From the IMG/VR virus record IMGVR_UViG_3300035034_000974, positions 1 through 36,609 of that record: a stretch of DNA of 36,609 nt; one strand, 5' to 3'. The stretch comes from a virus. This document shows positions 4,171 to 34,473 of this stretch, piece after piece (position 1 is the first letter of the stretch; each line of letters opens with the position of its first letter). Made by a program: the position numbers and the translations under genes. A model generated the notes under the pieces. It did no database searches and was not told where the DNA came from. It was given only the letters and a program-made list of their open reading frames with translations.

Positions 4171-4225
4171 TTAATGTTGTTAGACTATCTAGAGGTAAAA
4201 CTCTAGGTAGTTTATAGAGCATTAA
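4171..4225 (+). promoter_or_regulatory. Long imperfect hairpin after the 3652 gene
   Basis: An 11-bp stem (4184-4194 with 4201-4211, one G-T pair, 6-base loop) is enclosed by TTAATG/CATTAA (4171-4176 with 4220-4225). There is no U-run behind it, so it is not a standard terminator. It may be an mRNA 3'-end stabiliser or processing site, starting at the base after the stop codon. Confidence 0.55.
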
Positions 4226-4454
4226 TGACTATCGCAATCGTTCCTCTTTGTTCCACTCAATACCCACCCTATTTATAACTACAATATTCTACTCTGTATA
4301 TATATACACTATATATACATATATATATATATAATATATATTATTATATAATAATAATAATAATAATAATAAATAAAAGAAAAAAGAAAAACACACAAAA
4401 AAACTTAACAAACAAAAAATAAATATACGAAAAGCGAGAATTAGACTACTTTAA
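4226..4454. other. AT-rich spacer, candidate DNA-unwinding element
   Basis: No gene is visible. The segment from about 4290 to 4440 is almost pure A and T, with alternating TA runs and an ATA triplet repeat followed by an A-rich strand. It lies beside the DnaA-box cluster, the usual place of a DNA-unwinding element in DnaA-dependent origins. Confidence 0.5.
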
Positions 4455-4569
4455 GTTACAAAATGAGAACAAAATCTTTCTCATTGAGTTATCCACAGAA
4501 AATAGAGAGTTATCCACAGGTTATCCACAGGTTATCCACATGAGAACAAAAACGTTCTCAATTTGTAAC
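4455..4569. other. Probable replication origin with four DnaA boxes
   Basis: Four perfect TTATCCACA boxes in the same direction lie at 4489-4497, 4510-4518, 4521-4529 and 4532-4540 (offsets 21, 11 and 11 bp). The cluster is framed by inverted arms GTTACAAAATGAGAAC (4455-4470) and GTTCTCAATTTGTAAC (4554-4569), which match at 15 of 16 positions. Each arm also folds on its own through TGAGAAC. TTATCCACA is the consensus box of bacterial initiator DnaA, so I infer that host DnaA, or a phage protein with its specificity, loads replication here. The neighbouring 180 bp AT-rich stretch supports origin function. Confidence 0.75.
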
Positions 4570-4630
4570 ATAAAAGAGTAACTTTTAACACTTTTTAAAA
4601 TTTTCATTTTCACAGATGAATAATAATAAA

Positions 4631-4671
4631 TCTATCAAATAATCAGAATAGAGTTAATTTTAATAAATTTA
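4631..4671 (+). repeat. Decayed copy of the shared leader and start region (copy B)
   Basis: 41 bases match 4749-4789 at 36 positions. Four of the five differences are G to A in this copy; they turn the SD GGAG into AGAG and the ATG into ATA. It looks like a duplicated gene start that lost function, or a mutated decoy. Confidence 0.6.
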
Positions 4672-4674
4672 TTA

Positions 4675-4709
4675 TGTATATTTATACACTTTTTATGTAT
4701 ATTTATACA
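4675..4709. promoter_or_regulatory. Two tandem TGTATA-TT-TATACA operators
   Basis: The dyad TGTATATTTATACA occurs at 4675-4688 and again at 4696-4709, exactly 21 bp apart. Identical inverted repeats two helical turns apart upstream of the 4781 gene suggest cooperative binding of a dimeric repressor. The binding protein is not identifiable here. Confidence 0.5.
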
Positions 4710-4724
4710 TTATAAAGGGGGAAT

Positions 4725-4743
4725 GTCCAGGAAGGGTGAGGAC
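4725..4743 (+). promoter_or_regulatory. AGGGTGA-loop hairpin, copy 2
   Basis: GTCC pairs with GGAC around the 11-base loop AGGAAGGGTGA, 37 bases before the start at 4781. Same loop as copies 1, 3 and 4, different stem. Confidence 0.55.
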
Positions 4744-4780
4744 GATAGTCTATCAAATAATAAGAATGGAGTTGGTTTTA

Positions 4781-5173
4781 ATGAATTTAGAAAGTCTTCT
4801 TGGTGAAAAGGTATATCCTTTTAAAGATGTAGGTAAGTACACAGCTAGGTCAATCGTTTTAGATCATGTTGAAGTTGAAGACGCAGAGGGTTATCTCAGA
4901 GTATCTATTATATTCGATGATGGTGACACAGGTTATCAGAACGTATTTCCTGGGAGTTACAAGATTCTTGTCTCTTCTCTTACCTCAGCAGTATCTGATA
5001 AGGCTCTCAAAATGAGCGATTTAGTCAAAAAGTTAGCAAAATGCAAAATTGATGTATGGAGAAGCACAAATGTTGATAAAAATGGTAAGTTACACTATAA
5101 TTGGGTCTTCTATGAGCCTAAAGCAACTACTACAACCGAAACTACAACAGAAGAGGTACCATTATTTGAATAA
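4781..5173 (+). CDS. Small protein with EEVPLFE tail beside the origin
   Basis: 130 residues; family not recognised. Residues 1-108 alternate hydrophobic strands and a Lys-rich helix; then a Thr/Glu-rich linker leads to EEVPLFE, identical to the end of the protein encoded at 3652. The shared tail on different bodies suggests a common partner, such as a polymerase clamp, primase-helicase or SSB partner. I choose the ATG at 4781, 9 bases after GGAG. The open frame continues upstream to 4736, but that part is leader (operators, hairpin, shared leader copy C at 4749-4783). A strong terminator follows directly. Confidence 0.65.
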   Translation: MNLESLLGEKVYPFKDVGKYTARSIVLDHVEVEDAEGYLRVSIIFDDGDTGYQNVFPGSYKILVSSLTSAVSDKALKMSDLVKKLAKCKIDVWRSTNVDKNGKLHYNWVFYEPKATTTTETTTEEVPLFE

Positions 5174-5255: not shown

Positions 5256-5501
5256 ATGGATAAAAAAGATGTAATCAGATTTATGGGACGTTTTCCAGAT
5301 AAAAGAGAGCATATTATCGAAGCTCGATGTAGAAAGTGTCATTTAACTTTTGATATTGCTGTAGATTTAGATCATTTTAAAGCTTGGCAAGAAGGTGCAC
5401 TTATTCAAGACGCTATGCCGTATTTAACCCCAGAAGAACGTGAGTTATTTATCTCAGAACTCTGCCCAGATTGTTGGGACAAAATGTTTAAGGAGGAATA
5501 A
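5256..5501 (+). CDS. Small zinc-ribbon protein
   Basis: 81 residues. Two cysteine pairs (CRKC near residue 25 and CPDC near residue 71) about 45 residues apart could hold one zinc ion. The rest is helical and acidic. Function unknown; such proteins in phage early regions often bind nucleic acid or host proteins, which is inference. The ATG at 5256 follows GGGAGGTG by about 11 bases. The frame is open further upstream but crosses the terminator, so the longer version is rejected. First gene of a run of small genes extending to 7514. Confidence 0.7.
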   Translation: MDKKDVIRFMGRFPDKREHIIEARCRKCHLTFDIAVDLDHFKAWQEGALIQDAMPYLTPEERELFISELCPDCWDKMFKEE

Positions 5502-5502
5502 T

Positions 5503-5676
5503 ATGTTTAATATTACAGTTGCTAAAGGTCCAAAAGGTTATTGCGATGGTTGTGATCATCAGAAACCAATTATCGTTATTAAAGCTAAAGCAAATAGTCT
5601 TATGTTTGTCTGTTCAGATTGTGTAGAAAAATTAATTAAAGAACTAGAAGGAGGAATAATAAATGAAAAAAAGTGA
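5503..5676 (+). CDS. 57-aa protein with two CxxC pairs
   Basis: Starts one base after the previous stop with GGAGGAATAAT as SD and spacer. CDGC near residue 14 and CSDC near residue 38 form a likely treble-clef or ribbon-type zinc site. No enzyme motif; function unknown. Its end overlaps the start of the next gene by 14 bases, indicating coupled translation. Confidence 0.7.
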   Translation: MFNITVAKGPKGYCDGCDHQKPIIVIKAKANSLMFVCSDCVEKLIKELEGGIINEKK

Positions 5677-6349
5677 TTTAAGAAGTGGAATGTGGGTTAA
5701 ATATCGTAACGGTGAGATGATGATGGTTTTGTTAAAAGCAAGGAACGCTGATAGAACAGAAGATATTGTAACAGGTAATAACATATGGGGTAAACTAGAC
5801 AATTATACCGATGATTTAAAATGTTTATTTATCAGAAAATTTGACATAATGACTATTTGGATAGCCAATAAGGGAACAGACATACTTAATTTTTCTGAAG
5901 AAAACTTTTACTGCATCTGGAAAAGAGAAGAAATGCAATATATAACAAAGGAAACATCTGAAAAAATAATATATGTTGAAACAGGAGAGGAAATAAAGAT
6001 AAAAACAAAATCAATAAATTGTAATCCTACAATACCAGAACTTATAGAAGACGCACACAGTAATGCTATAATTAAAGGATGGTGGCACGAAAACAGATCT
6101 TTAGGAGATATAATAGCACTAATGCACTCAGAACTATCAGAAATGTTAGAAGAAGGTAGGAAAGGCAAGAGTGATACTGAAATTTACTATGAAGGTAAAA
6201 AACCTTGTGGAATACCAGTTGAACTAGCTGACTTAGTTATAAGAGTATTTGATTATTGTGGTGCTAAAAATATTAATCTAGAAAAAACTATACTTGAAAA
6301 GATAGAATTTAACAAAACTAGACCTTACAAACATGGCAAAAAATACTAA
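5663..6349 (+). CDS. MazG-like nucleotide pyrophosphohydrolase with an extra N-terminal domain
   Basis: 228 residues. Residues about 120-225 carry the all-alpha NTP pyrophosphohydrolase pattern: a helix with ALMHSELSEMLEE (the ExxE metal-binding pair) and, about 30 residues on, PVELADLVIRVFDY (the ELxD pair). Such enzymes split NTPs or dNTPs to the monophosphate and pyrophosphate, cleaning the nucleotide pool or, in some phages, draining alarmones. Residues 1-110 are a separate, unrecognised domain rich in Trp, Met and Lys. SD GGAGGAATAATAA precedes the ATG. A second nucleotide-hydrolase-like gene lies at 23269. Confidence 0.8.
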   Translation: MKKSDLRSGMWVKYRNGEMMMVLLKARNADRTEDIVTGNNIWGKLDNYTDDLKCLFIRKFDIMTIWIANKGTDILNFSEENFYCIWKREEMQYITKETSEKIIYVETGEEIKIKTKSINCNPTIPELIEDAHSNAIIKGWWHENRSLGDIIALMHSELSEMLEEGRKGKSDTEIYYEGKKPCGIPVELADLVIRVFDYCGAKNINLEKTILEKIEFNKTRPYKHGKKY

Positions 6350-7587: not shown

Positions 7588-7977
7588 ATGGCAAAAGTAA
7601 GGATAGTCGACAACGCATTAATCGTAACTAGTAGCACTAAATTGGAGGTAATAAAAGCTCTTCAAAAATTTGAACCTGAATCATTAGTCTTAATCAATCA
7701 AGAAACTAAAGATGAAATTTTTGTTGTAAGAGAAGGACACATAGCAGCCTTTAGTAAATTCGGAACAGTATTCACAGGTGAAAATACTAATGGACAAGCT
7801 ACTCTAACTTTAACTTTACCAACAGGATTGCCTGCTGAAGACAAAGAAACTTATGTAGAAGAAACTTATGGACACGCGATCTTAAACTTAAACTACTTAG
7901 AACTACAAATTGCTGAGCATGAAGACGCATTAATCGCAGCTATTAAAGACATCAAAGATTCTATCACAGTAGAATAA
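7588..7977 (+). CDS. Unknown protein heading the ubiquitin-like cassette
   Basis: 129 residues, SD GAAAGGATG. N-terminus MAKVRIVDNALIVTSS suggests beta strands; residues 60-85 are Thr/Gly-rich strands (TATLTL type); the end is a helix (LQIAEHEDALIAAIKDIKDS). It stands 17 bases before the ubiquitin-like gene, so it is probably part of the same unit. Uncharacterised small proteins accompany ubiquitin-like genes in bacterial PRTRC-type cassettes, but I cannot match this protein to one. Possible roles are target, adaptor or regulator; all are inference. Confidence 0.65.
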   Translation: MAKVRIVDNALIVTSSTKLEVIKALQKFEPESLVLINQETKDEIFVVREGHIAAFSKFGTVFTGENTNGQATLTLTLPTGLPAEDKETYVEETYGHAILNLNYLELQIAEHEDALIAAIKDIKDSITVE

Positions 7978-7994
7978 GAATGGAGGGAATATTA

Positions 7995-8228
7995 ATGATT
8001 GAAGTAACTATTGGAACAAACACCAAGAAAAAGAAAGTAATTATAGAACCTAGTGAGACATTACGTAATGTTTTAGAGGACAATGAAATTAATTATTCAA
8101 CTGCTAATTTACATCTTGATGGCACAAGTCTAGGTCTTGGGGATATAGATCAGTCTTTTGAAGAATTAGGAATCACTGAAAAATGTTTCTTAATTGCTGT
8201 TATTAAAGCTGAAAATGCAGTTGTTTAA
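7995..8228 (+). CDS. Ubiquitin-like beta-grasp protein
   Basis: 77 residues with the beta-grasp order: hairpin (MIEVTIG... KKVIIEPSETL), one helix (about residues 22-36), strand LHLDGTSLGL, a turn with SFEELGI, and a final strand CFLIAVI. This is the fold of ubiquitin, ThiS and MoaD. The chain ends AENAVV and has no terminal Gly-Gly, unlike classic modifiers, so it may need trimming, use another carboxyl end or not be conjugated. The ATG at 7995 follows GGAGGGAA by 6 bases. E2-like, JAB and E1-like genes follow, supporting a modifier role. A strong hairpin follows the stop. Confidence 0.8.
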   Translation: MIEVTIGTNTKKKKVIIEPSETLRNVLEDNEINYSTANLHLDGTSLGLGDIDQSFEELGITEKCFLIAVIKAENAVV

Positions 8229-8305: not shown

Positions 8306-9745
8306 ATGTTTCCTTCAGGAGAATATACCCAAAGTACAAATCAATGTAGCTTATATGACCGATACAAACAACTAATAAATGAAGGACAAAGATATATAAG
8401 ACGAGAAAGTGATGTTCCTGCATCTAGTTGGTTTATAGATCCTTCGATACAAACGATGTTATTTGGCCTTTCACAACACAACCCAAAAACAAAATTTTGG
8501 TTTGAATTAGATAAAATGAGTTTTACCAACCAAGAAATAGAACGTTATAAAGAAGAAGATTTAATACCAAATGAAATATCAGACACAGATTTTGGATCCG
8601 GAACAGATAATTATGTTATCGCATTTAAACATGTCACAAGAGGCTTCGAAATTTTTAAGCATCTTGATAATAAAATCAAAGACATGAAAAATATCTCTTT
8701 AATAGCACAAGAAGACCGAAACCACCGAATACGTGTTTTTATAGATCCTGAGTATCCTGAGAAATTACAAATTGTAAGTTCTAAATATTCTTGGGAATTA
8801 ATACGTAAAATAATCGCACTACTAAATAAAATATTTCCAAAAATAAACGTACCCCCAGATTTTGAACCTATTATTAAAGCTTTTGGAGCAGGAGACTATA
8901 CAGAATGGAGTAAACTTTTTAACGAATGGTTTGAAAATAGTACTATTCTACAAGACCGTTTAAAAACAGAACTGACTAAAATGTTAAATAATGGCTCAGA
9001 AAATAAAAAAATAAGACTACGAGAATCTATTAAGCATGAAAGAAGAAACATAGATCAATTTTTAGAAAAGCTTGGGAACACATACCATCGTGTAAATTCT
9101 ATTATAGAAGATCTTACTGCTCTAGAGTTTATAGAAAATACTGAAGGAGATGAAATCTTAGAATATTTACAAAAACATCCTAAAATAAAAGATATACAAA
9201 TTATTGATGATAAATTAATATTACGTATTATAAGCCCAGCTTGTTATTATGATACAGAAGCTTTAGAACCTTATTATAGAAACAAAAACAATATAATTGG
9301 GAGCTCAGAATTCTGGAGTTATTTCTTTGAAGAAGTATTCCTAAAAGAGAAATATACATTATTTCTTGAAACTATTATCCAAATAAACATTAGGCAAAAA
9401 ATAGCAAGAAAAGAAGATAATAAATACTTAATCGGAGACTACCCAAAACAACCACATATCATGGAGCATAACTGTTGGGGGAATAACTCAGCACACATAA
9501 CTAAAGGTTTAGGAAATGGAGAATATTTTGCTGTTATTGAACAAATCGTAGGTGCTACACAGAATATTAATTTTTCAGATACAATAGTAATGAAAACATT
9601 CCTATCAAATCTAGAAAATTATGATTGGTCTAAGAAATGTTTAATAGAGAACAAAACTAAAGAAAAAATCTCGATTCAAAATATTTTTGAAAAATGTAAA
9701 GATAAAAAGGAGGAAATTGATAATGAGAACGATCTCAATCTCTAA
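8306..9745 (+). CDS. E2-like (UBC-fold) protein with a large N-terminal domain
   Basis: 479 residues. The C-terminal part (about 290-450) fits prokaryotic E2-like proteins: paired strands (IQIIDDKLILRIISP), then PHIMEHNCWGNN with the likely thioester cysteine C390, followed by a helix and FLSNLENYDW. The local pattern H-x(n)-CWGN is how bacterial E2 homologues present their cysteine. It would carry the activated modifier between the E1-like protein and a target. Residues 1-285 are an unrecognised domain, helical from about 200, which may be a target-binding or cap domain. SD AGGAGTGG precedes ATG; its end overlaps the JAB gene by 23 bases. An exact E2 subtype cannot be given without a profile search. 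Confidence 0.7.
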   Translation: MFPSGEYTQSTNQCSLYDRYKQLINEGQRYIRRESDVPASSWFIDPSIQTMLFGLSQHNPKTKFWFELDKMSFTNQEIERYKEEDLIPNEISDTDFGSGTDNYVIAFKHVTRGFEIFKHLDNKIKDMKNISLIAQEDRNHRIRVFIDPEYPEKLQIVSSKYSWELIRKIIALLNKIFPKINVPPDFEPIIKAFGAGDYTEWSKLFNEWFENSTILQDRLKTELTKMLNNGSENKKIRLRESIKHERRNIDQFLEKLGNTYHRVNSIIEDLTALEFIENTEGDEILEYLQKHPKIKDIQIIDDKLILRIISPACYYDTEALEPYYRNKNNIIGSSEFWSYFFEEVFLKEKYTLFLETIIQINIRQKIARKEDNKYLIGDYPKQPHIMEHNCWGNNSAHITKGLGNGEYFAVIEQIVGATQNINFSDTIVMKTFLSNLENYDWSKKCLIENKTKEKISIQNIFEKCKDKKEEIDNENDLNL

Positions 9746-10484
9746 ACAACAAAAAAAAGAAATTATGAAAGAATTTGGAGAATATTTAGATGATGCTAGA
9801 TTATCAAACAATAAAATTAGCTACCAAAAAAACCTTGATAAAATTCTAAAAAAAGTAAAAAAGCCTAATATTCATTTTTCAGTAGGAGCTTATATGAAGA
9901 TGCTCTACTTAATTGAACATTACAAAACAGAAATAGCTTGGCACGGTACAGTTCATAAATCTCAAAATAATTACTTTATCAATGAAATTATGGTTTACCC
10001 TCAAGAAGTAACCGCAGCTACAGCAAATGCACCAAAACATAATCTAGATTATGAAATGTGGTTAATGAACCAACCAGATGATGTTTTAGAAACAATTAGA
10101 TTCCAAGGGCACTCCCACGTAAACATGCCTACAGGACCTTCAGGAACAGATAAAGATTTTTACAACGCAATTCTACAAAGTTTAGATAAAAATGATTTTT
10201 ATATTTTTGCTATTATGAACAAACGGAATGAACTTAACATTTGGATTTACGATTATGAACAAAATATTATCTTTGACAAAGAAGATATAAACTTGCATAT
10301 CTTAGAAGCTGATGGAACACCTATAAATACTTGGTTTCAAGAACAAAAGAAGTTAGTTAAAGAACCTAAAATAGCAAAATGGCAACTGCGAAACATTCAA
10401 GATGATGAAACTGAAGAAATTGAATATCTAAGACAACTGCGAAACATTCAAGATGATGAAACAGATATAAGTTGGAGGTCTTAA
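9723..10484 (+). CDS. JAB/JAMM metalloprotease (deubiquitinase-like)
   Basis: 253 residues. The complete zinc-protease signature is visible: upstream E70 (TEIAWHG), then H130-x-H132-x7-S140-x2-D143 in HSHVNMPTGPSGTD. The family cleaves isopeptide bonds or trims ubiquitin-like precursors. Here it could process the C-terminus of the modifier, which lacks Gly-Gly, or reverse conjugation. The C-terminal tail carries a 17-residue in-frame duplication (QLRNIQDDETE...), coded by a 29-base exact repeat. ATG at 9723 follows AAGGAGG; the frame is open upstream but overlaps the E2-like gene. It is translationally coupled to both neighbours. Confidence 0.88.
   Translation: MRTISISKQQKKEIMKEFGEYLDDARLSNNKISYQKNLDKILKKVKKPNIHFSVGAYMKMLYLIEHYKTEIAWHGTVHKSQNNYFINEIMVYPQEVTAATANAPKHNLDYEMWLMNQPDDVLETIRFQGHSHVNMPTGPSGTDKDFYNAILQSLDKNDFYIFAIMNKRNELNIWIYDYEQNIIFDKEDINLHILEADGTPINTWFQEQKKLVKEPKIAKWQLRNIQDDETEEIEYLRQLRNIQDDETDISWRS
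10383..10462 (+). repeat. In-frame 51-bp tandem duplication in the JAB gene
   Basis: 29 bases at 10383-10411 recur exactly at 10434-10462. No synonymous change separates the copies, so the duplication is recent. It lengthens the C-terminal tail by 17 residues. Confidence 0.85.
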
Positions 10485-10486
10485 AG

Positions 10487-11179
10487 ATGAATCTAAATAA
10501 ACATTTAGAATTTTTCAATCCTATTAGTGATATTAAAAAACCGATTCATATAATTGGTTGTGGAGCTGTAGGGAGTACAATAGCTGAAATGTTGACCAGA
10601 ATGGGGGTAGAAAAACTAAACATCTATGACTTTGACATCGTTACAGCACATAATCTAGCTAATCAGATGTTCGACTATGGAGATATTACTGAGAAAAAAG
10701 AATTAGCTTTACGAGATATTTGCCAAGATATTAACCCTGACATAGAAATTAAAAACCATGGAGCCTACACCGATCAACATCTTGCAGGTTACATTTTCTT
10801 AGCAGTAGATAATATTGAACTACGGAAAAAAATATGTACAGATAATAAAGCTAACTCAAGTATTAAGGCTGTCTTCGATTTTAGAATGAGATTAACAGAT
10901 GCACAACATTATGCAGCTGATTGGTCAAATTCCAAACAAGTTGACAACTTAATTAATACAATGCAGTTTAGTAGAGAAGAAGCTCAAGAATCAACACCAA
11001 CTAGTGCCTGTGGGACATCACTAAATATAGTTCCTACGGTAAGAATGGTAGTATCCTTAGGCTTAGCAAACTTCATTAACTTCATTAAAAAGAAAGAATT
11101 AAAAATAATGATCTTAATGGATGCGTTTAACTTCACTATTGATGCATTTTCTTTGGCTCAAGGTGCATACCAAGAGTAA
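10487..11179 (+). CDS. E1-like/ThiF-family adenylyltransferase
   Basis: 230 residues. Rossmann nucleotide site IIGCGAVG (about 22-29), acidic YDFD (D48, D50), then HNLANQ at the place of the usual NLxRQ, with N59 where Arg is expected, and LAVDN (D108). C175 in SACGTS is a candidate for the catalytic thiol. The family adenylates the C-terminus of ubiquitin-like proteins with ATP. The chain is short, a minimal E1 without extra domains. ATG at 10487 follows GGAGGT by 7 bases, right behind the JAB stop. Last protein of the cassette; the reverse-transcriptase region follows. Confidence 0.87.
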   Translation: MNLNKHLEFFNPISDIKKPIHIIGCGAVGSTIAEMLTRMGVEKLNIYDFDIVTAHNLANQMFDYGDITEKKELALRDICQDINPDIEIKNHGAYTDQHLAGYIFLAVDNIELRKKICTDNKANSSIKAVFDFRMRLTDAQHYAADWSNSKQVDNLINTMQFSREEAQESTPTSACGTSLNIVPTVRMVVSLGLANFINFIKKKELKIMILMDAFNFTIDAFSLAQGAYQE

Positions 11180-11195
11180 TCAAACGTTTTTTTTA

Positions 11196-11215
11196 GGGGG
11201 AGCAAAATTGTTCCC
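11196..11215 (+). promoter_or_regulatory. Hairpin after the E1-like gene
   Basis: GGGAGC (11198-11203) pairs with GTTCCC (11210-11215) around AAAATT. A T8 run precedes the hairpin rather than following it, so it is not an ordinary plus-strand terminator. It separates the protein cassette from the first candidate ncRNA. Confidence 0.4.
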
Positions 11216-11236
11216 TTAAACAAATTAAGAGAAATC

Positions 11237-11568
11237 TTTTCTATATCGGATAAATTATTAGAATCTATCAAACAGATTATTACTATTGATATACACACAA
11301 TTCTAATGATTGCTTTGAGTAATACTTAAAGGACCAAAAGGTAAAAGGAGCCTATACAACCTAAACAGCATCGCCAAGAACACGTAACGGCGTATAACCC
11401 AGAAATGACCTGAAAAAAAACAACCAAAAACACAACAATCCGCCTAACAAAACCAGATAAATCAACACTTACACCTCAAAGTAGATTATATAATTACAAA
11501 AACTCTGGCCCACGGCGGAAAAGAGGACTCCGGATACCAACTGTACAAGCAAGTTAGGATATAGAAAA
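11237..11568 (+). ncRNA. Candidate retron-like RNA 1, upstream of the RT
   Basis: A 332-base gene-free segment closed by an 11-bp perfect complement (TTTTCTATATC at 11237-11247 with 11558-11568), like the a1/a2 ends of retron RNA. Inside, in order: a stem at 11262-11278, a two-part stem at 11279-11307 (ATTA/TAAT and ATTG/CAAT), the conserved hairpin 11313-11331, and a longer part with nested stems CCGCC/GGCGG (11440-11444 with 11514-11518) and CCAGA/TCTGG (11453-11457 with 11504-11508). About 11402-11500 is A/C-rich and very poor in G. The SD of the RT lies just after the closing arm. Template role is inferred. Confidence 0.6.
11313..11331 (+). repeat. Conserved RT-locus hairpin, copy 1
   Basis: CTTTGAGT, loop AAT, ACTTAAAG: eight contiguous pairs including one G-T. 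Same element as 12796-12814 and 13038-13056. Likely the common recognition element of the RT, by analogy with msr stem-loops. Confidence 0.65.
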
Positions 11569-11586
11569 TTTAGAAAGGAGAATACA

Positions 11587-12735
11587 ATGTATATTACTTT
11601 TAAGAAAAACACTCAAGAAGAAATTGTAAAACTTACATTTAAAGATGTTTATGAAAATTTTGAAACAAACAAAATACCTGTACCAGAAAGAAGCGATAAA
11701 TTCTTCAGAACTTTTACAAAACAAATAGATCAATATCAAGCAGACATAACTATACAAAAATACGATAAAGAAAATATGCTTAAAAAATTAGAAGATATAC
11801 ACCCTAGAGTACGAGAGTTATTAACTGCAGATATGTCGCACCATTACAAAACGTTTCATATACCTAAAAGACAAGGAGGTCTGAGAAAAATAGACGCACC
11901 TGAACCAGAACTAATGGAACTTCTAAGAGATATTAAAAAGATATTTGAAAAAGACTTAAAAGTATTAACACACAACTCAGCTTTTGCTTATGTCAAAGGA
12001 CGTTCTACTAAAGATGCTCTAATGGAACACCAAAAGAACGAAAGTAAATGGTTTTTAAAATTAGATATTAAAGACTTCTTTCCCAGCTGTAATGCAAAAT
12101 TTATCTTAAATCAACTAGCTGAATTATTTCCTTTTCAGATATTAATGCAAGAAACTAACACCCGTAAAATCATCTCAGATATAGTCGAACTTTGTTTACT
12201 TAAAAACAGATTACCTCAAGGAACACCAATGTCACCACTATTAACAAACTTAATAATGCTACCCCTAGATTTTGATCTAAGCTTTAGTCTAAGAAACTTT
12301 GACAGAAAACACTTTATATACACACGCTATGCTGATGACTTACTAATTAGTTGTAAATACCATTTTAATTGGGGAAAAGTACAAAATCATATCAATGACA
12401 TTTTAAAATTAAGTACACCTTTCAGAATTAAACATCAAAAAACAAGGTATGGCTCAGCTGCAGGACGTAACTGGAATTTAGGTTTAATGCTTAATAAAGA
12501 TAACAAAATTACCATAGGTTTTAGGAAAAAAGAAAGACTAAGAGCAACAATTTTCACCTTCTTTCAAGACTTGACAAATAATAACACTTGGAATACGATA
12601 GATACACAAATTCTATTAGGTAACATAAGTTATTTCCATAGAGTTGAACCAGAATATATAAATAATTTAATTTCAAAATACTCTACAAAGTTTAATAAAG
12701 ATTTTTATAATGAAACAGCAAGAATAATCGGGTAA
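11587..12735 (+). CDS. Retron-like reverse transcriptase
   Basis: 382 residues, standard length for a retron-type RT (palm, fingers and thumb, no extra domain). Seen: KLDIKDFFPS with catalytic D160, LPQGTPMSPLLTNLIM, YTRYADD (Y248, D250, D251), and a thumb segment before GFRKKERLR. The stretch AYVKGRSTKDALMEH before the first Asp resembles the retron NAxxH region but is not a clean match, and the retron VTG is replaced by NLG (297-299). So it is near retrons or related Abi/UG-type RTs, not DGR or group II intron RTs as far as motifs show. SD AGAAAGGAG precedes ATG. Three structured noncoding segments flank it; no recognised toxin-type effector is adjacent. Confidence 0.92.
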   Translation: MYITFKKNTQEEIVKLTFKDVYENFETNKIPVPERSDKFFRTFTKQIDQYQADITIQKYDKENMLKKLEDIHPRVRELLTADMSHHYKTFHIPKRQGGLRKIDAPEPELMELLRDIKKIFEKDLKVLTHNSAFAYVKGRSTKDALMEHQKNESKWFLKLDIKDFFPSCNAKFILNQLAELFPFQILMQETNTRKIISDIVELCLLKNRLPQGTPMSPLLTNLIMLPLDFDLSFSLRNFDRKHFIYTRYADDLLISCKYHFNWGKVQNHINDILKLSTPFRIKHQKTRYGSAAGRNWNLGLMLNKDNKITIGFRKKERLRATIFTFFQDLTNNNTWNTIDTQILLGNISYFHRVEPEYINNLISKYSTKFNKDFYNETARIIG

Positions 12736-12795
12736 TAATAGTATATCTTCATTTGATTAAAATAAGAGCTTTCCTACGAAAGAAATCAGATGAAT

Positions 12796-12814
12796 CTTTA
12801 AGTAATACTTGAAG
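12796..12814 (+). repeat. Conserved RT-locus hairpin, copy 2
   Basis: CTTTAAGT, loop AAT, ACTTGAAG: eight pairs including one T-G. The flanking bases differ from copies 1 and 3 while pairing is kept. Confidence 0.65.
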
Positions 12815-12823
12815 GAACATGAA

Positions 12824-12970
12824 AATAATATCCTCATCTTACCAGAAACTGTATTTCGAGACATCTCAGGCCTTACGACTTATTATCCATAAAGACGGAT
12901 AATAAAATCTCCACGCCTGAGATCTCCGAAACAAGTTTCCAGTAAGATACAAGTAGGAGGAAGTATTATA
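12824..12970 (+). other. Extended msd-like hairpin of candidate RNA 2
   Basis: Stacked stems: ATAATA-TCCTC with GAGGA-AG-TATTAT; CTTAC and GAAACT (12838-12850) with AGTTTC and GTAAG (12934-12946) around a 2-by-2 loop; TTTCG-AGA (12854-12861) with TCT-C-CGAAA (12923-12931); TCTCAGGC (12864-12871) with GCCTGAGA (12915-12922); TTATTATCC (12880-12888) with GGATAATAA (12897-12905), 8-base loop. This is the form of a retron msd, the part copied into DNA. Confidence 0.7.
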
Positions 12971-12985
12971 TCCGAAATCAAATAA

Positions 12986-13131
12986 ACAACAATAGTAAAC
13001 ATCTAAAGATTGTTTCTACTCCATTCAACTTTAGATACTTTAGGTTATACCTGAAGGATAAGAAAGTAACATTGGTTCAATATTAAAAGCCAAAGCTTTT
13101 AAAATTAAGCTAGAAGTGAGAGTATTGTTGT
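12986..13131 (+). ncRNA. Candidate retron-like RNA 3
   Basis: Starts two bases after RNA 2 ends. The 5' arm ACAACAATA (12986-12994) pairs perfectly with TATTGTTGT (13123-13131). Inside: ATCTAAAG (13001-13008) with CTTTAGAT (13029-13036), the conserved hairpin 13038-13056, and TTAAAAGC (13083-13090) with GCTTTTAA (13095-13102). At 146 bases it is the shortest of the three, with a small msd-like part. The SD of the next gene begins three bases after the closing arm, so the RNAs fill the gene-free DNA almost exactly. Confidence 0.6.
13038..13056 (+). repeat. Conserved RT-locus hairpin, copy 3
   Basis: CTTTAGGT, loop TAT, ACCTGAAG: eight pairs. Compared with copy 2, an A-T pair has become G-C on both strands (compensatory change), and the loop differs by one base. 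Confidence 0.65.
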
Positions 13132-13146
13132 GTTTAGGAGGACACT

Positions 13147-24734: not shown

Positions 24735-27700
24735 CTAACTCCTATAGGTCATGTCTTTTATACGATATTGCACACTCTGCCCTGTCACTGGAATCATCCT
24801 TAATTGCATTTTACTCTTACCAGTTAAAGTATAATGTTTCTTATAGAAACTATCATACCAATCAAACTTCCTCATGTAGAAATTAGAATAATGTGTCTTA
24901 TGCCAAGTCTTACTAACATAATCCCCGCCATTCATTTGCTTGGAATAATTCTGCCAAGTAGATTCATAAGGTTTTAATTTACGCATCGTATTCCCAGTAT
25001 AAGGTTTAGGTTTATAAGGTGCAAATCTTTTAGTGGCACCCAATATACCAGGTACAACTTTATGAATTTCTTGACCTGTACGTTCAGTATATTTAGGACC
25101 AAGCTCTCCATAACGTTGCATAGCAGTACCAATAATTGGGAGGAGAGCTGAGGTCTGTCCTTTCAGACCAGTTGGTTCTCCAAAGACATTCAGTGTTTTT
25201 TTGAGGGGTTCTGGAAGCTGTTCTTGATTAGCTTTTAGAGTTTCACTCAAGAGAGAACCCGTTGGTGCGTTTAATTTACTAGCCATAGAACCTATTGGGT
25301 CTGTACCAATATTATAAACATCCATGAATGAAGGATTAGCTTTAAAAGTCATACCATTATCATACAAAGGAATGTTTCCTGAAAGAATTTGATACTGTAA
25401 AGAATAATTATGCTCTAATTCATAATGGTCTGTATCATCAAAATTCCATATCGGAGTCATTACATCTCTAAATAAATTCGCTACCCAGGGTTGATTGATA
25501 ATCGTCTCTACCCAGAAATCTAAGTTCCGCATTGTAAACGTATAGAAAGGAAATACGGCTTCCATCATACGTTCTGTATCACTCTTGATTGAATAATCAA
25601 AATGAGTTTTGGCAATAGAATAAAAAGATTCTATGTCTGTCTTACCTCTTGAGATATTATAAAGATGTTGTCCTAAACGAGAGATCTGTTCGATTACTTG
25701 GTTAGGAGCCATAGCCGCGTTAGAAAGATGTACAAAACTTTTCCACATTCCTTCTTCTTTATCATCTTCCCCAGGTCTGACTTTATAATAATTTTTCCAA
25801 GGTCCTGTAAGCCCAGCTGAAGGCCCATCCATAATGAAAGCGTGCATGAACTCATAGGTCTCTCGGTCTAAAGTAGGATTCATAAGACTAAAATAAGCTT
25901 CGACATGATCATTTCTAAATCTTCGATTAGGATCCATTTTAATAATAGTTTCTACAGCTTGATTATATTTGCTTAATAGAACACCCGCATCATATTCTGC
26001 TTTAGCAAGCTCTTTAGTCTCTCCTGTAGAGATCATATTCTTCATAGTACTATCTATGAAGTTTCTCATAAATACACCAGGACTAAATAGATAACCAATC
26101 TTATAAGTATAGATTATTTTATTCCAAAGTTTCATAGCAGGATGATCTAACTCATTAGTGTTGATTACTTCAAAAGCTCTACTATAGGTATGATAAGGCA
26201 TAACGATTGCTTCTAATCTCCGAGCATCTTTAATCGCATCCACAGAACTAGGGCTAATTTCTAACATTTCAAAATCTCTTTTACCACCTGTGACTAAAGC
26301 AACTAATCTAAATTCGGGCTGTTGCTGTAAGGCTTTCATTACTTCTTCATCTGAAGCATTTTTCATCCAACCATTGTTAATACTAAAACTTTCGTCATAC
26401 CACATTTGAGCATATTTTGCTTTAGCTGAAGAATGAAGAGCCGATTGTTCAACATTATTTTTATAGAGAGAAATTATAGTATTAGGTACATACTTCGATT
26501 TTTCTTTACGATTTGCTATAGAACCTAAGTTAATAAAATTATATCTTAACTTTCTAAAGAAATTTCTATGAGTAAAGTTTTCTAAATCGAGCATCTTTGC
26601 TTGTATTTCTTGGGGTATTTTATTATGAAGCTCTTCCAAAAATTCCTTACCTGCGAGGTCTCCAACACTACCTACCGCCCGTCCTTCTGAAAGTCTATGC
26701 AGAGAAGCTCTTGTATTCACCAAGGCCATGTTTAATTCTTCATCAAGTTCTTCACCAGCCTTACTTAAGTTTAAATCTTTTAACATAGGTTCTTCAACGA
26801 ATTCATCGTTAAGTTTAAAACGAACTTTACCTTCTTCAATAATACTTTCTAATTTTAAAGAACTTCCAAGTCCGACATACATTCGTTCCTCTTTAGATTC
26901 AATTTCTAAACCTAGTTCAGCGAGCTCATCTTTTTTAAGCATAAAATTTGCAAGGGCTTCTTTTAAACGAGGGTTATCATTAACTGTCCTAAGATTGAAT
27001 TCAAACCAAGGAGCTTGATGAACCATCAATCGTATAAGATTATTATTATCTAGCTTTAAAACTTGCTCTAATTGTTGTGTAGCTAGATTGTCAAAATACT
27101 TTCCTAAAGAATCTAAGAGTACTTGTTGCTCTTCTAAATCTGCATTGTCCATTCGTCTTACAAAAACATCTAATAGATTTTGTGTGTCTTCCAGGTCTGC
27201 AGCTAAAGCTTGTGTAACTGCTCTACTAAACTTGTTACCATGATAAGTCTGAGCTAACTTCACATAATTCTCTTTAGACTCTTGAAAAGATTTAGCAACA
27301 GCTCGTCTTATAGCTGGATCTGCGACATTAGAATCTATTGTAAACTCAAGCATAGCCTCAGCGTAAGTTTTTTCTGAGCCAGGTTTAGAATACTGATAAA
27401 CAAGTTCTCTACCTTTAGGCGTTAATAATTCAGCAACTTTAGGAGGCAAACGATCTATTAAGGCTTGAGACAGGCCGTCTCTTCTTTCGTACTGTTTATA
27501 AAGATATTCTAACATAACCCAATTTGAAAGAACATCTGGTTTATCAGTTCTAAACTTGCTCAAGAAATCTTGAGATGTAGCATTAAAGAGAGGTACGAGC
27601 GAACCTTGATCGTTTATCATAGGTCTTCCACTTAACGAAATGCTATTCATCCCAACGGGTTTTAAAACCTTTAAAGCTTTTCTAATATCAGCCGCATTAG

Positions 27701-30700
27701 CTTCTAAAAGATATGGGTTTTTAACAGCCTTGTGCATTTTATTAAGAGTTTTAGACATGCTTGTTAAAGACTTGGCAAGACTAGCATTAATTTTATCACC
27801 TTCAACAAATTTGAAGTACTCTATAATACTAGTAAAATCTACACCGACTTTAAAACCTAAGAAGTTGGGGCCTTCTGAAGAAGCATATAAGAATTTACCA
27901 GGGTTCAGATACTCCCCATACTTTTCTATAATTTGTTCATCGGTCATTTTAGGAAAAACACTTTGCATATATTCTCTAAAGAAAACCAAACCTTCAGGAC
28001 TTTCTAGCCACTCATTCGTTACACTCATCCAGCTTAATCTTTTATTTGTTTGGGATATGTTTATGAATTGTTCATAAATCATACCTCCTAGTTCTCTAAA
28101 TTCTCTAGAATAATCATTTAAAGAATTTTTATTAACCCGCATAGCAGGTATTTTATTCACACCATCTCCAGCAAGGGAATCAAACTCTTTAGCTAACTGC
28201 ATTAAGAGACTCGCCAAACGCCCATTATTTGGATTAATTAGTTTAGTTGAATTAGTCCCTAACATACGGTCCGTATAATTCCGTAAAACTTTACGCATTT
28301 CTCGGATTTCTTTTTCTGAGATCTCAAAGAACCCTTCCTTTTTACGTATTTCTTTAAGTGTGTCAATCATATCTAGCTTTTCAAAATACTTACGTTCTCT
28401 ACGTGGAAAACCTAAAGCTTTCATTCTTCCCAAGATAAATTGAATATCAAATTTTTCACCATTATGAAAAACTAAAGTAGGCGGAGTACCTGCCTTAGTC
28501 TCCATCGCTCTAAGACTATCAATAAACTCTGAGATAACTTGAGCTTCAGTACGTTGCTCTTTACTAAATTTAGCATCAAAAGCATTAAGTTGTTTTGCTT
28601 CAGTATCATACTTAGCTAACTTAGGATCAAAGAATTTATCTAGAACTATTTTCTGAGGAGTATCTAAAGGATTATTTGTGCCAGCCTTACGCCTTAGAAC
28701 AGCTACTTTTCCTGAACTTCTGAATTCTTTAAAACCAAGCTCTAATATAGAACCAGTTATAGAATATAAAGTTGTGGATTCAATGTCAGCTACGACAAAT
28801 CTTTTAATTGAGTTTTCAAAAAGTTCAGGAAGCTCTTTCTCCATAAATCTAGTAAGCCCTTCAACATCGTCACTAGCAGTATGTTTAGTACCTTCTAATT
28901 TTTCAAGACTTTGACTACGTTTCATCTCTCTTGAATTAACATTATCGTGCATTTTCTCAAGAATGTTTTTAAAGTGCCACTCAAATTGAGTATCAAATTT
29001 AACTGGATCTAACCTGGCATAGTTCTGAATGGTTGTTAAAAGCGACATCCTAGTTGTATCTGTAATACGAGCTCTGTTTAGATCTTCTAAAAAAGATATA
29101 TAACTATTATACTTTCCTGAGTATTCCATAATTTCTTCAGATAACTCTTTAAGTTTCTTCAAAGATTCTGGAACTTTAGCATCTGTGATTGTTCTTAGGA
29201 AACTACCTGTACCTTCATTAGTGTCTAAAGATTTAATAAAAGTATTGATTGTTTCCGCTTCCTTAGAGCCTACTAAGATTTTTAATAAGGAAGATACATG
29301 TTCCATTTTAAAAGTATAATACTTTTTGCCTGCTGTTACATCGAGCTCCCGAGCAGTTACTTTAATAGGATTAATATCATCTAACATAACAGTGAGGTCA
29401 TCTAAAACCCTAAGTCCTTCTTGATATTTGTTACCTTTATTTAATTGCCTAATAATTCGTTGTAATTCTAACCAGTTGTCAGCAAAGGCACTCTTAGCTG
29501 ATAGATTTTCTGCTGCTCCTTTAAAGTTGTGGATAACTTCTGCAAGATATTCTGGAGGTGTTGAAGCCCCTGCTTTTTTAACAGCACTATAAATCTCTAT
29601 AGGATTTTTTATAAAATTATATTGCCCAGAAATAGCTTCTGTGATCCCAAGATGTTTAGGTGTGCTTAAAGTCTTAGGAATATATTCATCTAAAATCTGA
29701 ATAAGTTTGTACTGAATATATTCTGTAGGATATTTAGAACCTTCCATATTCTTTAACTCTTGAGTTAATCTTTGGCGAAGAGCCCAATGCACTTTTTGAA
29801 AAGCTTGGAAATCTTTTTGTTCTTTTCTAAAAACTGAGATAGCTTCTTCATAACGTTCTTGAGGGTATTTTAGGTTTACTGCTTTTTTTCTTAATTTACT
29901 TAGTTCAAAAGATCTTTCTTTTAAATATTCAATATATCTTTTTTCTGAATCTTTAAACCCAAAAATAATTTTGCTACTTAATTTACGATAAAACATGTAA
30001 GATGTTTTAGATTGTACTTTCTCTGCAATTAGATTAACCAAAGACGAATTCTCATCTAACCAACCACTTAGATTTTCTAGATCTGGAAATTGTTTATCTA
30101 ATTCGTGGACAACTTCTTTTACTTTTTTGGGATCAATCTCTATAGGTTTTACAATAGGTTGTAATTCATTAACCTTCAAATGTTTAAGTTGGCTTTCTTG
30201 AAGAACGTCAATAATCTTGCCTTGTTTAATAGCTTGGTCGTACATCTTTTTCATCTTCATATTGATGTTGACCCCTTCTTCAAAAGGATCGACTTCTTGG
30301 AGTGTGTCTTTAAAAAGTTTATTATAACCCGTCATAAAATTATTTATTCGAACCTGTATATTAAACTTATAAAAATCTACTTTTGATAGGTCGCCTTTAC
30401 TGTCAAAAATTTGTTTAGAAATATCATCAATAAAAGCATTAATGTTAGCTTCTATTTCATCAATTAATTTATTATAGAAAGGAGTATTTCCTTTATAAAG
30501 AACGTTCTGTTTATAACGGTTTATTAAAGGTAACTTCTGTACGTCTTTTTGAAGCCTGTGTAGTTGTTGATTTAAACCTCTAATAATTGAATCTTGTTCT
30601 ACAATCTTAGTTTTAACTTTAGTGTTCTCTCTAATTTCTTTAGCGAGAGCGATGTCTTCCTGAATTCTAAAAAAGTCTGAAAAGACATCATTTTTATTTG

Positions 30701-33125: not shown

Positions 33126-33132
33126 TTTGTTA

Positions 33133-34473
33133 TCACCTCCAGGCTCGCCTAACTCCAGAGCTGCGTGTTTGATTATTCGTACTTCTTTTTTTTGGTTTGA
33201 GAGGGTCATTGGCTCCACCCCAACCAGGAGCGTACTTCTCATAAGGTTTGATTTTATCATACATCTTATCTCTTTGTGCTTTAGAGATTAATTTATTCTC
33301 GTAAGCACTATTAAATGAACCTCTTACTTGACCATAAGTCTTTCCCTCAAACATATCTTTACCACCTAAAGAACCTAGTTGACTCATACCTTGTTGTTCA
33401 AGACCAAAGAGCATTTGCGAATCAGCGTCACTAGAACCACCTCCACCTGAACTACTTCCTCCACTACTAGAACCCCCATAGCTTCTTGCTTGAGCTCTCG
33501 TGCCCGCTAAGTTCTGATTTGCAGCATATTTAGTTCCTGCTAGGTTCTGATCTGCGGCATAACGTTCAGCCTCAACTTGGGCCATCATACCTTCTAGTTG
33601 TTTAGAAGCTTGGTCCATCCTAGCTTGATAGTCCATTTCTCCTACACCAAACTGAGTGTCAGCGGCGTAGTTAGCTGAGTCAAGTTGTCCAATCTGTTGT
33701 TTGAGCATGTTAGCTGCATCCATGGCATCTTGCGAATTTCTAGCCATATCAGCAGTCTTTTCATCCTGGAGAATATTACGTTCTTGCCCTAGCTCTGTAG
33801 CTCCAGCTGCACTTTCTTGCCCGACACCTAAAATAGCACTTAGTTCATTAGCAGCTTGCATACCTCTAGAAGCTCCAGTTGCTACGGCTGCAGCGTTATT
33901 CTTTCGGATAGTATCAAGAGCTGTTGTCTGAGTCCCATACATTTGGTCATAAAATTGATTTTCGGTTTTAGCAAACGCTTTATCCTTTGCGGCGTACTCC
34001 GTTTCAGTAGCTTTATTAAACTTCTCTAGAATAGATTTTTCATCGTAGTCTATCCCATACAGTTTTGCAAGATCCTCACCCATAAGATTTGGTTGCTTAT
34101 ATGGCTTTTCTTCTGGTGCTGGTGCTGAGGACCCCCCAGAAGATGTAGATTTGGGTTTAGAACCTGAAGTGTTTAAAGACCTTCCTGCATATATTTTATT
34201 CTTGTCTTTAATATTGTTGTCTTTAACTAATTTATCAACAGTCGTATCAAACTTCTTAGCTATGGAAGTTAAAGTATCCCCTGATTTAATTTTATAATCT
34301 CCAGAACTTTTAGAACTAGAACCAGAGCCAACGTTTTTCAACGTGGCCCCAGCTTGAATTTTATTCTTATCTTTAATATTATTGTCTTTAACTAACTGTT
34401 TAACAGTCGTTCCAAACTTTTTAGCAATAGCCGAAAGCGTATCACCTGATTTAATTTTATAACTATCAGCCAT
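33133..34473 (-). CDS. LysM virion-type protein
   Basis: 446 residues. Two LysM repeats (about 3-48 and 59-104: YKIKSGDTL...), which bind peptidoglycan, share almost the same sequence, so they are a recent duplication. A Ser/Gly/Pro linker leads to a helical part rich in Ala, Gln and Met (about 145-340), like internal or tail-tip structural proteins. A Gly/Ser run (about 330-350) follows, then a compact end. Its 3' end carries the SD of the giant protein gene, implying joint production. Role: virion wall-contact or DNA-ejection component, by inference. Confidence 0.7.
   Translation of the reverse strand: MADSYKIKSGDTLSAIAKKFGTTVKQLVKDNNIKDKNKIQAGATLKNVGSGSSSKSSGDYKIKSGDTLTSIAKKFDTTVDKLVKDNNIKDKNKIYAGRSLNTSGSKPKSTSSGGSSAPAPEEKPYKQPNLMGEDLAKLYGIDYDEKSILEKFNKATETEYAAKDKAFAKTENQFYDQMYGTQTTALDTIRKNNAAAVATGASRGMQAANELSAILGVGQESAAGATELGQERNILQDEKTADMARNSQDAMDAANMLKQQIGQLDSANYAADTQFGVGEMDYQARMDQASKQLEGMMAQVEAERYAADQNLAGTKYAANQNLAGTRAQARSYGGSSSGGSSSGGGGSSDADSQMLFGLEQQGMSQLGSLGGKDMFEGKTYGQVRGSFNSAYENKLISKAQRDKMYDKIKPYEKYAPGWGGANDPLKPKKRSTNNQTRSSGVRRAWR

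Follow-up and report, generated by a model that had tools for sequence, protein, structure and literature searches.

A probable multi-template, retron-like system in gut phages: one reverse transcriptase gene among several template-like RNAs

The reverse transcriptase gene and the RNAs around it

The stretch of DNA considered here, called the window below, is the entire virus record IMGVR_UViG_3300035034_000974 (36,609 bases), which can be assigned to a phage because it bears terminase, endolysin, DNA polymerase and primase genes. On its plus strand lies a gene for a retron-like reverse transcriptase (RT), and around this gene stand three candidate template-like noncoding RNAs (ncRNAs), w1, w2 and w3. 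All three can be described by a common layout in which two end arms, a1 and a2, pair with one another and enclose a presumed priming G, two hairpins and a variable middle (msd). The features are listed below, with lengths in nucleotides (nt) or amino acids (aa); descriptor ranks refer to a pattern search of the window that is explained further on.

11237..11568, plus strand: ncRNA 1 (w1), 332 nt, descriptor rank 1; a1 11237-11247, presumed priming G 11248, hairpin 1 11253-11311, hairpin 2 11313-11331, variable part, TAG, a2 11558-11568
11587..12735, plus strand: retron-like reverse transcriptase, 382 aa; Pfam RVT_1 2.5e-21
12731..12973, plus strand: ncRNA 2 (w2), 243 nt, descriptor rank 3, with the same a1/a2 in the minimum-free-energy fold; a1 12731-12740, G 12741, hairpin 1 12748-12794, hairpin 2 12795-12815, long msd hairpin, AAG, a2 12964-12973
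12986..13131, plus strand: ncRNA 3 (w3), 146 nt, descriptor rank 2; a1 12986-12994, G 12995, hairpin 1 13001-13036, hairpin 2 13038-13056, short msd, GAG, a2 13123-13131

Judged by its sequence, the window RT is nearest to retron RTs of the St85/Ec83/Ec78 kind. It scores 201.6 bits (1.5e-59) against the NCBIfam retron St85 model, below that model's cut-off of 235; its best PADLOC profile is RT_II-A (1.4e-55), and a search with the family profile gives the Ec83 RT as the best match in the PDB (2.7e-46). An earlier note, made from the letters of the window, had described an RT with a YADD motif and D160. The gene is the open reading frame (ORF) at 11587-12735, and both catalytic motifs are invariant in all 27 aligned family RTs. 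The placing of this RT between gene-free segments also holds, as no plus-strand ORF of at least 60 aa is found in 11180-11586 or 12736-13146.

The same hairpin had been reported in all three segments, and it stands up to comparison with shuffled sequence. It lies at 11313-11331, 12796-12814 and 13038-13056 with compensatory changes, and the best three-way 19-mer gives 47 of 57 pairwise matches, the highest value among 100 shuffles being 41. Perfect end pairing of 11, 8 and 9 bp had been claimed for segments of 332, 233 and 146 bases. The outer two lengths and stems stand, the 11-bp stem of w1 being reached by 1 of 200 shuffles and the 9-bp stem of w3 by 5 of 200. The 8-bp stem of the middle segment does not: 19 of 200 shuffles reach it, and it is corrected because its 5' arm lies inside the stem of the first hairpin and both the family pattern and the unconstrained fold differ from it. 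The family pattern pairs a1 12731-12740 GGTAATAATA with a2 12964-12973 TATTATATCC (6+2 bp), a pairing that the unconstrained fold of this stretch reproduces identically, and the length of w2 becomes 243 nt (12731-12973) in place of 233. The a1 of w2 overlaps the RT stop codon.

The family pattern was written as a descriptor (a1, G, 3-8 nt, hairpin 1, hairpin 2, further sequence, AG, a2) drawn from other phages; it was not blind, in that w1 was already known and the new w2 pairing suspected at the time of writing. When the 36.6 kb are scanned on both strands, the three segments are the top three places, with scores of 64.8, 57.3 and 53.7. Scores of 53.5 and 53.2 occur at unrelated places, and six shuffled windows give at most 50.7. 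By this score w2 is not set apart from the background, its support coming from the shared hairpin and from its place at the RT stop. A G follows a1 in all three RNAs, by the descriptor's own rule.

Template-like RNAs in related loci

The nearest record in the phage collection, L002, is an unannotated faecal phage scaffold whose RT is 36% identical to that of the window in the alignment. Its gene order is that of the window, and it has a pair of similar RNAs: the first precedes the RT, and the other follows it at a distance of two genes and is recognised from a 13-bp stem and our own reading alone. Used by itself as a query, the window RT protein has no match in viral_contigs, whereas a two-sequence alignment of window and L002 did match; a distant blastn search of the window RT region against the phage collection likewise gives no match. 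A profile of the same two RTs finds 368 relatives in IMG/VR, of which 80 were kept and, with the repeats L018, L019, L038, L060, L078 and L080 left out, 74 used. In a quick tree, the RT family (83 rows, two further rows with stops having been dropped, and with only part of the 80 genome loci described below included) forms one side of a branch against 39 other bacterial RTs (SH-aLRT 99).

With a simple descriptor, 37 of 76 loci (counting the window and L002) show an upstream RNA of the typical form, a few of these being doubtful. This RNA runs from a1 through a G and some bases to hairpin 1, hairpin 2 directly after it, a conserved AACAAxTTG-like tail and a long variable part, and its a2 ends shortly ahead of the RT gene. 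Two cruder searches were given up: a plain hairpin with GGA was too unspecific, and a loose descriptor run over whole loci gave many chance matches on both strands with a mild excess near the RT, so that a covariance model was used instead. This model, R1, was built from 30 upstream ncRNAs, window and L002 excluded. It matches the upstream RNA of L002 (32.6 bits) and not the second one; in the window it matches w1 at 20.0 bits (E 0.039) over 11280-11354, around hairpin 2 and short of a1. Across the 74 loci (888 kb, both strands searched) R1 gives 164 matches at E<=10, training RNAs included, all on the RT strand; many lie on the downstream side of the RT, and a locus can hold several. A second model, R2, was trained on 120 matches with E<=0.05 from 72 loci; all 165 of its matches, the 120 training ones among them, are on the RT strand.

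Among the best 80 genome loci listed, where the RT family appears only in metagenome-assembled genomes (MAGs) of Clostridia, R2 matches 39 times in 15 family loci, without exception on the RT strand, and has no match in 65 loci of other bacterial RTs from the same listing, which are classical-retron-like though not each checked. In 38 further loci, fetched with the neighbouring gene ThiF and outside the training, all 26 matches are on the RT strand. Where the earlier note looked to RT homologues for a decision, the relatives are thus found to keep the structures, and a model trained on upstream RNAs leads to downstream copies. The covariance-model search that it proposed bears out flanking RNAs in relatives and, weakly, w1; it does not recover w2 or w3.

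Copies were counted in 71 non-redundant viral loci, the near-copies L014, L024 and L056 being dropped and 134 of the 165 R2 matches (E<=0.046) being used. At least one copy is found in 59 loci, at least two in 39 and at least three in 18, with a maximum of eight, and these counts lend comparative support to the proposal that one RT would be served by several template-like RNAs. Sixty copies lie upstream and 67 downstream of the RT; 25 of the 67, like w2, begin no more than 50 nt from the RT stop, and 6 of 127 copies share over 40 nt with a conserved gene. At E<=0.001, each of fifteen whole virus records, picked for several copies, has 2-4 copies, and within any one record these share a strand. 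In a 98.8-kb record all eight copies fall inside 5.3 kb, and three others searched whole have five copies, ten (the MAG of L195) and one (L005). L195 itself is a contig of an Oscillospiraceae MAG, in which the RT end is followed (397-2640) by seven copies head to tail at a spacing of about 290-370 nt. Scaffold and a2 are alike along this array, the middles differ, and two scaffold sub-types alternate; ORFs as long as 167 aa run across it and show no sign of being genes, though no test was aimed at that. At L057, the ncRNAs at 5303 and 7053 stand one on each side of a single RT, and their 256-nt middles are identical; this points to either a duplication in the recent past or an artefact of assembly.

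R1 and R2 stop well short of the a2 arm, so that a1/a2 pairing can serve as a control that the models did not use. From the 150 best of the 165 matches, minus 5 without a letter at the G column and 2 with too little DNA, 143 copies were obtained; a1 and a2 pair over at least 7 bp in 103 of them, against a mean of 12 (maximum 21 in 50 rounds) when a1 arms are exchanged between copies. Since the presence of such a stem and of the G had been a criterion in selecting the R1 training RNAs, the count was repeated without them. With near-copies removed, 73 of 108 untrained copies have at least 7 bp (8.7 expected, maximum 16), and among untrained downstream copies the pairing is present in 51 of 74 (5.9 expected, maximum 10). 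A G occupies the priming place in 119 of 145 copies, a number that includes the 30 R1 training RNAs chosen for it, and in 86 of 108 untrained copies; it is mostly preceded by T and does not stand within TAGC. AG is found directly ahead of a2 in 44 of the 73 well-paired untrained copies, with ties broken towards AG. In an alignment that was fitted to the structure, hairpin covariation is 0.577; shuffles give 0.224, and sliding gives no more than 0.191. As far as sequence comparison reaches, the scaffold, its covariation, the number and places of the copies and their link to the RT clade are established.

The middles can be compared between like-placed copies. In phages with RT genes 72-78% identical, 21 such pairs have an msr identity of 36-88% (at least 59% in 18) and an msd identity of 36-56%, shuffled msd giving 35-47%. 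L053 and L056 have RTs that are 97% identical, near-identical scaffolds and a2, and unrelated middles; in the L034 group a downstream copy keeps 69-84% identity over 63-219 nt. By these comparisons, msd turnover is common, not universal. A faster-than-neutral change of the msd was considered and not adopted, the outcome being mixed: L009/L014 and L044/L173 change at about the fourfold-site rate and L053/L056 far faster. Copying of the msd from other phage genes is also unsupported, with few matches beyond the same contigs, mostly to other ncRNAs of near relatives; when the L195 array is compared with its own MAG, it matches only two ncRNAs on another contig. The central part of 97 well-paired copies contains little G on the RNA strand, 0.16-0.18 where the loci have 0.23. 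A 21-nt piece of an L056 msd (5596-5891) recurs exactly in a gene-like stretch of an unrelated viral contig, L269 (683-703); the chance of this is roughly estimated at a few per cent, given two patterns and a guessed collection size, and nothing is drawn from it.

The ubiquitin-like cassette and other regions of the window

Upstream of the RT, on the same strand, lie all the genes of a conserved cassette:

7588..7977, plus strand: 129-aa cassette protein; BLASTP 4e-10 (single comparison) to the like-placed L002 protein
7980..8228, plus strand: ubiquitin-like protein (Ubl); AlphaFold2 model, mean pLDDT 84
8306..9745, plus strand: 479-aa conserved cassette protein; cluster (492-aa protein) in 74 of 91 family loci
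9687..10484, plus strand: JAB/JAMM-like protein; H-[ST]-H motif in 65 of 65 cluster members
10472..11179, plus strand: ThiF/E1-like protein; Pfam ThiF 3.7e-20; cluster in 68 of 91 family loci

Across the 91 family loci the clusters have 90 (RT), 74 (492-aa protein), 68 (ThiF), 65 (JAB-like) and 59 members (small proteins including the Ubl), and the other conserved neighbours are a helicase and proteins without known function. A search with ThiF only finds the family RT in 78 of 80 loci, with a query taken from two RT-bearing phages and many contigs that the RT had also found. The window ThiF is matched by E1-E2 and 6A-MBL profiles; PRTRC_ThiF matches weakly (2.3e-6 in L070, 1.3e-4 in the window), far below its cut-off. 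No Pfam family matches the window JAB/JAMM-like protein at 0.001, and in the relative L012 Prok-JAB reaches E 0.0027, below the Pfam cut-off. On the evidence of its predicted model, the window Ubl has the ubiquitin fold: the top Foldseek matches are mostly ubiquitin and SUMO structures, with a best E of 3e-5. A GG is absent from its C-terminus in nearly all of 26 rows. The 479-aa protein has H384, C390, G392 and N422 as invariants (31 rows) and a model with no PDB fold match at E 0.001; a role as an E2 was rejected, being without fold support.

Three other places in the window can be recorded. By eye, some 30 bases close to the 3' end of the JAB-like gene can be seen to recur almost perfectly as a direct repeat (10383-10470). 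A 2841-aa ORF on the minus strand (24735-33260) has no PHROG match at 0.001. At 4171-5048 there is a long stretch without a chosen gene, in a rough gene call and with a 145-aa ORF overlapping it; it has TATATA-like repeats and is possibly an origin or control region.

A retron-like system, its rivals and its meaning

Together, these data make it probable that gut phages of this lineage carry one RT with several template RNAs, a multi-template and retron-like system. The RT would recognise a shared scaffold, made up of the a1/a2 stem, the G right after a1, hairpin 1 and hairpin 2, which is borne on several ncRNAs (up to eight found) before and after the RT gene. It would prime at that G, and each ncRNA, with a middle of its own, would yield a different branched RNA-DNA (msDNA). 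Transcription, priming, cDNA synthesis and the making of several products are all steps that we infer from sequence.

The closest known systems are St85/Ec83/Ec78-like retrons (PADLOC types I-A and II-A), which share the closest RT profiles and solved structures, and an ncRNA upstream of the gene that bears a1/a2 and a G where a1 ends. The phage family differs from them in its several ncRNAs per RT, some of them downstream, in its ubiquitin-like cassette, in an N-terminal extension of about 60-80 aa ahead of the part matched to retron structures, in altered NAXXH and VTG motifs, and in having no recognised effector. The system looks built to work like a retron because it has the G at the a1 end, the closing stem, the hairpins, a template and an intact catalytic site. 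Because NAXXH and VTG are changed, the G is not in TAGC and no effector is recognised, it is labelled retron-like on these sequence features and is not filed as a retron type. An ordinary phage-borne retron can be seen for contrast in L004, a Vibrio filamentous phage record with a type I-A retron and genes noted as ATPase and PtuB.

Other parallels can be drawn. CBASS type II Cap2/Cap3, Bil and PRTRC are ubiquitin-like systems that likewise join an E1-like ThiF, a JAMM motif and a Ubl fold in one operon; the phage cassette differs from them in being tied to an RT, and a fold search of its 479-aa protein found no E2. Engineered retron arrays in which a single RT serves several templates have reportedly been made (Gonzalez-Delgado, 2024), and these are man-made, whereas the phage loci are natural. 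The nearest natural precedent found is Retron-Nex1 (Ne160), which has several apparently duplicated msr-msd repeats and lacks any RT closer than a kilobase (PMC6868368). In the phage loci, by contrast, the RT is surrounded by its repeats, whose middles differ. The earlier note had thought the layout new, and in the literature covered (titles and abstract starts, few subscription papers) neither a natural phage RT with several ncRNAs nor an RT beside such a ubiquitin-like cassette is reported.

Several observations weigh against this interpretation. Twelve of the 71 RT loci are without any match. Of the 38 further ThiF loci, no more than 16 contain a match and 8 at least two, and the multi-template reading is slightly weakened on that account. 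No clear a1/a2 stem is present in 40 of 143 copies. Neither R1 nor R2 matches w2 or w3 as whole RNAs, and R2 with its filters off gives only noise-level fragments there; since both models miss them, w2 and w3 rest on the descriptor, the common hairpin and position. A stable msd hairpin is a feature of classical retrons, and the msd as a group is not significantly more structured than control DNA (median z -1.29 in 102 copies, -1.12 in 100 control stretches, p 0.21); those of the window are more structured than the control, at -3.2 (w1), -6.7 (w2) and -2.3 (w3). In the RT, NAXXH (region X) is mostly DAxxxH at the aligned place, with H148 invariant in 27 RTs, and VTG (start of region Y) is mostly NLG, with only G299 invariant. 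According to PMC6868368, 14 of 16 validated retrons keep NAXXH and 14 of 16 likewise VTG. No effector is recognised among the conserved neighbours in the 91 family loci, many of which have no known function. For a use of the products as bait or decoy, it also counts that the window RNAs and their msd share only short, chance-level words with the rest of the window and that few msd matches are found across all the loci compared.

These points can be set against other explanations. If the ncRNA adjoining the RT were the sole template and the remaining copies decaying duplicates, the copies without a clear stem and the failure of the models on w2 and w3 would be expected, and L057, with its identical msd on both sides of the RT, indicates that copies can duplicate. 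We think this unlikely, as downstream copies keep both scaffold and a1/a2 pairing well above expectation while the msd differs between phages, and more than a third of them sit within 50 nt of the RT stop. Slightly less likely again is that the RNAs are structured scaffolds or regulators, bound by the RT or another protein and not reverse transcribed. The unremarkable folding of the msd and the altered retron motifs would suit such a role; the invariant YADD and D160 argue against it, as do the G next to a1 and the AG ahead of a2, at the frequencies given above, which are what a fixed primer and start site would need. A diversity-generating retroelement or group II intron remnant is very improbable. 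Motif 4 of the family RTs is mostly LPQGTP or LPQGS, unlike the L-x-x-G-A-P-S-S-P of the PDB retrons shown, which could point that way, yet the window has no template/variable repeat pair and no Rfam family at gathering score (group II intron domains included), and the best RT profiles are retrons.

What a set of msDNAs would do is a more tentative matter. It could form a panel of baits or decoys for nucleic-acid-binding proteins of the host or of rival phages, a suggestion we hold with less than even confidence, and the Ubl, E1 and JAMM proteins would then regulate or tag the RT or its targets. If CBASS type II is taken as an analogue, the RT itself may be what the ubiquitin-like genes act on. 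Nearly as likely is an anti-phage defence carried by the phage, in which every msDNA would sense a trigger of its own and disturbance of one would free an effector located elsewhere, as in bacterial retrons; the ubiquitin-like machinery may be that effector. Such a defence would fit the nearest RT profiles, which are retron RTs of anti-phage systems, and the E1, JAB and Ubl genes, which recall CBASS type II regulators; it fits less well with the absence of a recognised effector and with a cassette that is near-constant in the lineage and not patchy. A bait or decoy panel seems, weakly, a better fit than a classical toxin-antitoxin retron because the cassette is so constant, no toxin is recognised and middles are exchanged. 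In its fullest and doubtful form, the proposal is of natural phage retron arrays: a constant scaffold repeated up to eight times would carry exchangeable msd payloads, swapped wholesale between some close relatives, and the RT would write from them a single-stranded DNA library, coupled to ubiquitin-like conjugation, as a multi-target decoy or recognition panel.

The rule for retrons has been one RT, one ncRNA and at least one effector, and a phage lineage with several templates and no recognised toxin, its RT lying next to ubiquitin-like genes, would break it. It offers a testable case of a virus that would make a set of small DNAs during infection, and its RTs are candidate natural multi-template enzymes on offer for genome editing. 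It may also show how phages answer defences that sense DNA.

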